Source: an uncultured bacterium
Lineage (GTDB): Bacteria > Cyanobacteriota > Vampirovibrionia > Gastranaerophilales > Gastranaerophilaceae
Direction of reading: 5' to 3'
Length of the DNA: 64,000 nt
NCBI GenBank assembly: GCA_950022495.1
Contig: CATLLJ010000004.1
Span: 111,830 to 175,829, forward strand
Below are positions 1 to 1,379 of the stretch, one piece after another; the stretch's first letter is position 1; each line of letters opens with the position of its first letter. The translations under genes were made by a program, and so were the position numbers. The notes beneath the pieces are model-generated. The model did not search any database, had not been told where the DNA came from, and saw only the letters and a list, made by a program, of their open reading frames with translations.

Positions 1-326
1 GCATCTTTCGGCAGTTTAATTGGCGGGTGTCCTTCACCGCCTTCTTCGCCAACAGCCATAGTTGTTAGCTTTGCATTATTTTTTGTCTGTTTTTTCTTTG
101 GAGCATTTGTCATTGCACCATCATTAAAGTTAACAAATGTGTTATCATCCGGATTAGATTCGATACTTAATCCTTTTACTTTAAATTCAGCATTTGTTTT
201 TTCTGTTTTTTGAGCTTTTTCAGATTTTTCAAATGAAATATTAGCAATTTTTTTTGCTGCATTCTTAATACTTTTAAGTTCTGAATTCTTTTTAGGGGAC
301 ATACCATTGCCGTCTACTCTTACCAT
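1..326 (-). CDS. Probable graspetide precursor, 3' end outside the window
   Basis: The reading frame opens at the ATG complementary to 324-326, preceded by an AAGGAGC ribosome site, and runs off the window after 108 codons without a stop. The first ~85 residues are Lys/Asn/Ser-rich and polar, without signal peptide or membrane segment. Residues 88-97 read TTMAVGEEGG, followed by EGHPPIKLP. A T-T-x4-E-E core is the hallmark of plesiocin-type (group 2) graspetides, in which an ATP-grasp ligase joins Thr hydroxyls to Glu carboxylates. An ATP-grasp gene starts 129 bases away on the opposite strand, which supports this reading. Further core repeats may lie to the left of the window. Alternative: an unrelated small lineage protein with a chance motif. 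Confidence 0.55.
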   Translation of the reverse strand, partial: MVRVDGNGMSPKKNSELKSIKNAAKKIANISFEKSEKAQKTEKTNAEFKVKGLSIESNPDDNTFVNFNDGAMTNAPKKKQTKNNAKLTTMAVGEEGGEGHPPIKLPKD

Positions 327-409
327 TCAGTGCTCCTTTCAATTTATACATTGATATATTACGGAATGTTTTTTCAAAAACTTTAATATTATGATTTTTT
401 TGTTACAAT

Positions 410-437
410 TTGAAAAATTTTAATAGTGGCGTATATT
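410..437 (+). promoter_or_regulatory. Candidate sigma-70 promoter of the ATP-grasp gene
   Basis: TTGAAA (410-415) and TATATT (432-437) are separated by 16 bases. The predicted start of transcription would be only about 11 bases before the start codon, so the ribosome site AGAGGTGAG (443-451) would sit at the very 5' end of the message. Confidence 0.4.
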
Positions 438-454
438 AAAAAAGAGGTGAGAAC

Positions 455-1330
455 ATGATAATAATTATAGGTAGTGATGAAGATTTTCACGCAAAATATG
501 TTTTAGAAAATCTAATAGAACAAGGTCACAATGCAAAATATTTAGATACCAGAGATTATCCATTAATTAAATGGTCTCCGGAGAGAGAAAATGATTATAT
601 AGTACTTGATAATGAAAAAGTTTATATTAATGATGTTCAAGGTCTTTACTGGAGATGGTATTATGGTATAAATTATGGGACTTCTGATATTGTTTATAGA
701 GAAAAATTATCTGCTCTTGAAAGTTTTTTGACTTCAATTGAAGATATTAGTTATAACTCTATGCAAGCTGTTGAACTTCATTATAAAAAAGGTCTTCAAA
801 GCAAAATTATGCAAAATAATGGAATAAGAATTCCAAGAACAATTGTTACAAATGACAAAGATGTAGTTGCAGATTTTTATATAAGTAATAATAAAAGTAT
901 AATTTATAAACCTGTCAGGGGTGGTGCTTATACCCAAAAATTTAAAGAGGAAGACTTATTACGTACAGATTCTCTAATTAACTGTCCTGCACAATTTCAA
1001 GAATTTGTTGATGGGGTTGATATTAGAGTTTATGCATTTGACAGCGGAGAGACTTTTGCGGGTGAGATTATTGCTGAAAATGTTGATTTTAGACAAGATG
1101 AAGACGCAATAATAAATAAAGTTGAATTACCGGTCAAAATTCAAGAAGATTGTTTGAAAATTCTTAAATTATTAGGACTTAAGTATTCCGGAATAGATGT
1201 AAGGTTAAGTAAGGATGGAGAATATGTCTTTATTGAAGCAAATCCCGCACCGATGTTTTACTATTTTGAAAAAGTTACCGGACATCCAATCACGCAAACT
1301 CTTATAAATAATCTTATTAAAGAAAAATAA
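455..1330 (+). CDS. ATP-grasp ligase, MvdD/PsnB-like graspetide maturase candidate
   Basis: This 291-residue protein has the two-part layout of ATP-grasp peptide maturases. The N-terminal ~100 residues look like a pre-ATP-grasp domain ending in VQGLYWRWYYG, comparable to the WYRR-type segment of this family. The ATP-grasp domain follows, with the nucleotide-binding lysine in YKPVRGGAYT (~residues 150-159), the central strand QFQEFVDGVDIRVYAF and the metal-binding motif DVRLSKDGEYVFIEANPAP. Family members use ATP to activate side-chain carboxylates and form ester or amide links in a ribosomal peptide. Strong Shine-Dalgarno AGAGGTGAG. The divergent neighbour carries a T-T-x4-E-E core, which fits a precursor. 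A RimK-like glutamate ligase is the alternative. The family assignment is firm; the substrate is inferred. Confidence 0.75.
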   Translation: MIIIIGSDEDFHAKYVLENLIEQGHNAKYLDTRDYPLIKWSPERENDYIVLDNEKVYINDVQGLYWRWYYGINYGTSDIVYREKLSALESFLTSIEDISYNSMQAVELHYKKGLQSKIMQNNGIRIPRTIVTNDKDVVADFYISNNKSIIYKPVRGGAYTQKFKEEDLLRTDSLINCPAQFQEFVDGVDIRVYAFDSGETFAGEIIAENVDFRQDEDAIINKVELPVKIQEDCLKILKLLGLKYSGIDVRLSKDGEYVFIEANPAPMFYYFEKVTGHPITQTLINNLIKEK

Positions 1331-1331
1331 C

Positions 1332-1363
1332 AAAAAGGACGGATTAAAAAATCCGCCCTTTTT
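1332..1363. terminator. Bidirectional intrinsic terminator
   Basis: A-tract/GGACGGATT, short A-rich loop, AATCCGCCC/T-tract. It lies between the convergent ATP-grasp gene and pckA and can serve both strands. Confidence 0.85.
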
Positions 1364-1379
1364 TGAGAGATTTTGGGGA

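Follow-up and report, generated by a model that had tools for sequence, protein, structure and literature searches.

A probable plesiocin-type graspetide cassette with a multi-core precursor in Gastranaerophilales

A divergent gene pair at an assembly gap

The DNA considered here, hereafter the window, is a 64,000-nucleotide stretch (G000:C4:111830-175829) of a 1.93-Mb genome from the Gastranaerophilales, in the Vampirovibrionia, gut-dwelling non-photosynthetic relatives of the cyanobacteria. Its first 1.3 kb hold a divergent gene pair specifying an ATP-grasp ligase and a core-bearing precursor. The ligase gene (455..1330, + strand; 291 aa) encodes a PsnB-like graspetide enzyme, as judged by NCBIfam and PDB matches, predicted fold, and invariant residues. 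It is preceded by the Shine-Dalgarno-like sequence AGAGGTGA (443..450, +) and followed by a probable intrinsic terminator (1336..1365, +), in which GGACGGATT and AATCCGCC are followed by a T-run. On the opposite strand, the 5' part of the precursor gene (1..326, -) has the Shine-Dalgarno sequence AAAGGAG (333..339, -) and reaches the window edge. Its first core, TTMAVGEEGG (36..65, -), is predicted to carry two esters, T1-E8 and T2-E7. An earlier, sequence-only reading had already pointed out both frames and the core motif, and the two frames lie where it had placed them. Between the genes lies a divergent intergenic region (327..454). Alignment of six such regions from same-genus cassettes reveals a conserved stretch. 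The dyad TTGTTACAA (400-408, in 395-411) falls within this stretch, close to where the ligase gene probably has its -35 element, and is a possible operator.

The precursor frame was traced leftward in the extended locus L002, in which each coordinate equals the window position plus 10,000. A scaffold gap of exactly 100 N (L002 9901-10000) begins exactly at the window edge, inside a 69-bp core repeat. Because the gap flanks match the ends of one 69-bp tandem repeat unit and the codon phases join in one reading frame, the gap most likely hides whole 69-bp units. Beyond it, the frame reads LKVTYSPEENGGEGIKQAIPKDA-LKVTYSPEENGGEGIKQAPKDQKMTTYAVGEEGGSDTNQKMTTYALGEEGGDNGGSPTPTLY-stop, with the stop at L002 9642 and the protein ending in LKVTYSPEENGGEGIKQAIPKDALKVTYSPEENGGEGIKQAPKDQKMTTYAVGEEGGSDTNQKMTTYALGEEGGDNGGSPTPTLY. 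This segment contributes two VTYSPEENGG cores and two further TTx4EEGG units. Thus, the assembled gene specifies at least five cores, three of the form TT-x4-EE-GG and two of the form VT-x4-EN-GG, a count that is a lower bound since the gap may hold more repeats. The precursor frames of two other loci, L022 and L023, likewise run to contig ends. Together with the gap in L002, this suggests that repeats in the family often break assemblies.

The sequence-only reading had proposed that the divergent neighbor of the ligase is a group 2 graspetide precursor with a TTx4EE core, and had suggested looking for further such cores to the left. They are there: TTx4EE cores recur past the window edge, alongside VTYSPEENGG, and the frame then stops without entering a large unrelated protein. 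On sequence grounds, the window gene is a multi-core graspetide precursor and not an unrelated protein. Neither it nor eight representative precursors significantly match any precursor family in Pfam or NCBIfam.

The leader is long, as the earlier reading had estimated (about 85 residues): 87 residues precede the first core. At the C-terminal end of this region lies the block NPDDNTFVNFNDGA (114..155, -). The leader is homologous to those of five same-genus precursors, and the columns of the block are kept in all six. Within the block, TFVNF (140-126, -) is an instance of the motif [TSP][FY][VIL]x[FY], which is present in nearly all Vampirovibrionian precursors examined, the exception being L026, and at greatly differing distances from the first core. 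A motif this short gives p values of 0.03 to 0.2 in shuffles of single sequences, so its weight rests on its recurrence. Conserved hydrophobic or aromatic motifs are known from graspetide leaders (PMC8939145), and by analogy the TFVxF-type block is a likely candidate for the ligase-binding site. A search of PDB sequences with the leader profile and two precursors returned no match, and no signal peptide or anchor was seen at the locus.

A PsnB-like ligase and its relatives

The protein encoded at 455 had been taken, from its letters, for a graspetide ligase with a pre-ATP-grasp plus ATP-grasp layout, and family models, structure searches, and the predicted fold bear this out. In NCBIfam, it matches MvdD (TIGR04184; 2.6e-30, 105.7 bits), MvdC (TIGR04185; 3.6e-30, 105.2 bits), and GRASP_SAV_5884 (4.3e-29), all below the curated cut-offs. 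A score under the equivalog cut-offs for MvdC and MvdD is expected of an enzyme from another subgroup. The RimK family model (TIGR00768) reaches 5.6e-14 and 52.2 bits, against a cut-off of 143.4. Among PDB sequences, the plesiocin ligase PsnB (7drm) is the best match at 6.5e-35, with about 30% identity. The next matches lie near 6e-14, and PsnB leads CdnC, MdnB, and MdnC by 21 orders of magnitude. An AlphaFold model built from 30 homologs (pLDDT 92.5, pTM 0.88) likewise retrieves PsnB first in Foldseek, and VIA-align gives PsnB a Z of 29.8 (rmsd 2.2 over 279 residues) and RimK a Z of 24.9. The possible grouping with RimK or glutathione-type enzymes, raised in the sequence-only reading, is thus contradicted by both sequence and fold. 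Residues K152, R191, D248, E261, and N263 are invariant in the 30 homologs, so the catalytic site looks intact. A 49-row tree places the ligase inside a Vampirovibrionian clade (support 100/98) and the microviridin-type (Mdn/Cdn) ligases in a separate clade (100/99). The position of PsnB itself in this tree is weakly supported.

Homologs of the ligase are present in 6 of 46 genomes of the same genus, 15 of 239 of the same family, and 24 of 335 of the same order. Named relatives that carry the ligase belong to Gastranaerophilales, Ca. Galligastranaerophilus, Vampirovibrio, and Ca. Melainabacteria, and photosynthetic Cyanobacteria also possess homologs at 33-40% identity. The divergent pair that the earlier reading had suggested seeking in related genomes is present. 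Specifically, an adjacent core-bearing ORF accompanies 18 of the 21 ligases of the window-type clade, in divergent orientation in 14 cases and convergent in 4. The ligases at L035, L036, and L037 have no recognizable core-bearing ORF nearby. Within the genus, the leader profile matches all six ligase-bearing genomes and one genome, G034, in which no ligase was found. In G034, a short precursor remnant with two decayed cores (L069 810-1133, +) adjoins threonine synthase, an apparent case of cassette decay.

The cassette is flanked by different housekeeping genes in different species. In the window it adjoins what we take, from reading the sequence, to be PEP carboxykinase. In four relatives it presumably lies between an RNA-polymerase-like gene and threonine synthase, by the same kind of reading, and in one it is found elsewhere. 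At the six same-genus loci, no protease, peptidase, exporter, or transporter, including the NHLM type, lies beside the pair. The genome of the window encodes a single C39 peptidase domain, away from the cassette, and the five other same-genus ligase-bearing genomes encode none. This absence suggests that leader and cores may stay together.

Other graspetide-like loci were noticed along the way. In genus g33, a second PsnB-like ligase subfamily (39-40% identical) pairs with precursors whose T[TLK]AYPSDDA-type cores are microviridin-like in the PSDD part and occur several per chain. Such repeated cores are found at L027 894-1373 (-), L028 2571-3092 (+), L029 2574-3095 (+), and L031 2572-3093 (+). 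In the Vampirovibrio/Melainabacteria precursors at L012 7084-8319 (-) and L013 1045-1821 (-), the cores follow SYLNF close to the N-terminus, and a domain of roughly 130-150 aa that looks conserved comes after them. In genus g36 (L021 212-1363, -; L020 206-1363, -), precursors combine degenerate cores with CDKPSW repeats and His/Trp-rich ones (WGHHHWGHHHWG). Next to distant MvdD-like ligases (27-29% identical) sit small precursors (L030 2442-2729, -; L039 2443-2715, -) that bear LDTMT..SDSGDE motifs and are another graspetide type within the same family. At L072 4743-8352 (+) and L073 1-2787 (+), a third ATP-grasp type (33-35% identical) belongs to a conserved gene row: upstream of it is a protein of 290 aa, and downstream are one of 361-376 aa and a small ORF. 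Finally, in cyanobacterium G441, a 600-aa frame beside a ligase (L077 6824-8623, -) has an HPFEL-type leader start, then Calx-beta domains (Pfam 6.6e-18), then about eight TTLALGEEGG-type cores. Because L077 joins these three elements, cores can be parts of large proteins.

Core repeats, paired losses, and a variable loop

Chance does not account for the core motif, and we rejected that explanation from counts that lie far above composition shuffles. Within the 108-109 aa visible in the window, composition shuffling yields TTx4EE in 0.2% of trials. The assembled frame contains three such motifs against 0.012 expected. Precursors of same-genus relatives carry 7-13 strict TTx4EE motifs each, where shuffles average at most 0.1, and close relatives reach up to about fifteen hairpins per protein.

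Loss of the outer residues is paired. Among 91 unique cores from 28 precursors, collected with a permissive finder that in part builds in the invariance of T2, E7, and G9, 53 keep both T1 and E8, 24 lack both, and 14 are mixed (Fisher p 4.9e-10). A second finder, anchored on loop and tail residues only and blind to the four ring residues, returned 50 unique cores, 38 of them intact. In this set, T1 and E8 are lost together in 8 cores against 1.8 expected, while T1 is lost alone in 2, E8 in 1, T2 in 1, and E7 in none. Cores from one relative or from several cannot count as independent observations, and the p values for covariation are therefore indicative only. The co-loss supports a Thr1-Glu8 outer ester, and the overall pattern fits nested Thr1-Glu8 and Thr2-Glu7 esters. 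The inner pair gives no covariation signal of its own because T2 and E7 hardly vary.

When the outer pair is lost, TT....EE becomes VT or GT....EN or ES. The cores VTYALGENGD, GTYALGENGD, VTTAIGESGD, and the VTYSPEENGG of the window gene suggest that natural one-ester cores exist. In other graspetides, substitutions at the inner linkage abolished later esters, and the fuscimiditide ligase ThfB still forms the inner ring in variants with a substituted outer pair, Val and Asn in the case of ThfA46 (PMC12291112). Loss of T1 and E8 with T2 and E7 retained agrees with both findings.

Position 3 is the most variable core site (3.3 bits), with K, L, Y, Q, R, and M common, and K, M, Y, Q, and E are mixed there within single precursors. 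Across 50 same-genus TT..EE cores, 98% of differences at position 3 are non-synonymous, compared with 41% at position 4. The Thr codons of same-genus TT..EE cores differ widely and synonymously, a pattern partly set by the filter. Such hypervariability at position 3 would, by analogy, be expected of a multi-specific protease inhibitor.

Proposed product and competing explanations

Plesiocin, a group 2 graspetide made from PsnA2 by PsnB in Plesiocystis pacifica, is the nearest known system. It shares tandem TTxxxxEE cores and a single ATP-grasp ligase with the window type, and PsnB is the closest solved relative of the window ligase by sequence and fold. Plesiocin has four repeats (PMC12291112), and group 2 clusters often carry an NHLM-type transporter (PMC13097080). 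The window type differs in its phylum, its leader of about 87 aa, its divergent gene order, the lack of an adjacent transporter, its 7-13 strict cores in same-genus relatives, and its natural cores without T1 and E8. Cyanobacterial TTLALGEEGG precursors (L041-L051) share the core, and their ligase, also PsnB-like, is 33-40% identical to that of the window. These precursors are mostly small and have M.HPFDL...GG double-glycine leaders, whereas Vampirovibrionian leaders carry the TFVxF-type block and lack the GG, and the cores that follow are often much more numerous. Microviridins and the multi-core class II AMdnA (MdnB, MdnC) share the ATP-grasp ester chemistry, and AMdnA has several cores per chain that are processed distributively (PMC5934393). 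The window locus does not fit the microviridins. Microviridins have a TxKxPSD core, a PFFARFL leader, and two ligases with a lactam step, whereas the core and leader here differ and the single ligase falls outside the Mdn/Cdn clade. Finally, the engineered fuscimiditide variants ThfA11 and ThfA46 (ThfB) offer a parallel, as ThfA46 combines outer Thr-to-Val and Asp-to-Asn changes, the logic of VT....EN (PMC12291112). ThfA46 is a laboratory construct on an unrelated core, whereas the VT....EN cores of the window type appear natural.

The locus very probably is a stand-alone two-gene cassette for a plesiocin-type (group 2) graspetide. The sequences themselves show the family of the ligase, the precursor and its cores, their co-occurrence, and the joint loss of T1 and E8; we infer that the ligase recognizes the leader, that esters form and how they connect, and that the product is exported and inhibitory. 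The precursor would consist of a leader of about 87 aa followed by a string of cores. The PsnB-like ligase would bind the leader, probably at the NTFVNF block, phosphorylate Glu side chains with ATP, and close Glu-to-Thr esters. TT..EE cores would acquire an inner T2-E7 and an outer T1-E8 ester, and VT..EN cores T2-E7 only, so that at least eight esters (-144 Da) are predicted for the assembled part. The most likely product would be an extended series of rigid hairpins that differ in their loop residues and together act as a multi-headed serine-protease inhibitor. Analogy and loop variability make protease inhibition about an even prospect. A broader proposal, which we advance tentatively, is that giant graspetide proteins with multiple specificities form a natural family in gut and predatory non-photosynthetic cyanobacteria. 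The notion is that the intact chain, with up to about 15 hairpins and with two-ester and one-ester cores bearing different loop residues, may itself be the active form, able to inhibit several host or prey proteases through its many heads, and that two genes suffice to make it.

Other fates for the same chemistry deserve consideration. Cleavage by host or cellular proteases at sites between the cores could set free numerous small peptides, bicyclic or monocyclic, that serve as antimicrobials or signals. That every core ends in GG, that spacers are often short and charged, and that the window's genome does encode one C39 peptidase domain all speak for release; yet the same-genus cassettes lack a peptidase or exporter, C39 is missing from the other five genomes, many spacers are long, helix-like, and not cleavage-like, and the L077 cores hang on a Calx-beta protein, so we regard this outcome as rather doubtful. 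Alternatively, the ester hairpins could be structural, stiffening a surface, matrix, or intracellular repeat protein, with protease inhibition not their function. The great length of the repeat proteins, their helix-like spacers, and the folded Calx-beta domains that precede the cores in L077 would suit such a role. However, neither signal peptide nor anchor was seen, and the combination of fixed frame residues with a hypervariable position 3 is more in keeping with target recognition, so we consider the structural role unlikely.

A more radical objection takes the ATP-grasp protein for an amino-acid ligase of the RimK/LysX type and the TT..EE motif next to it for a coincidence. The RimK model does match and the fold is shared, but the match lies far under the cut-off at half the MvdD score, sequence and fold searches both rank PsnB first, most ligases of the clade have cores beside them, and leader and ligase co-occur. 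These results, together with the repeats beyond the window, led us to reject a RimK or glutathione-type enzyme as highly improbable.

Our literature search found no paper joining graspetides with Gastranaerophilales or Vampirovibrionia, and the mining surveys of Lee 2020 and Ramesh 2021 may already list such loci. Tens of core variants occur naturally in the family, apparent one-ester cores included, so that natural substrates can be used to test in what order, and how independently, graspetide rings close. If the products of these cassettes are inhibitory, chains of 7-13 strict cores that differ in their loop residues would represent multi-headed protease inhibitors of natural origin from gut bacteria, with a bearing on digestion by the host and on competition within the gut.
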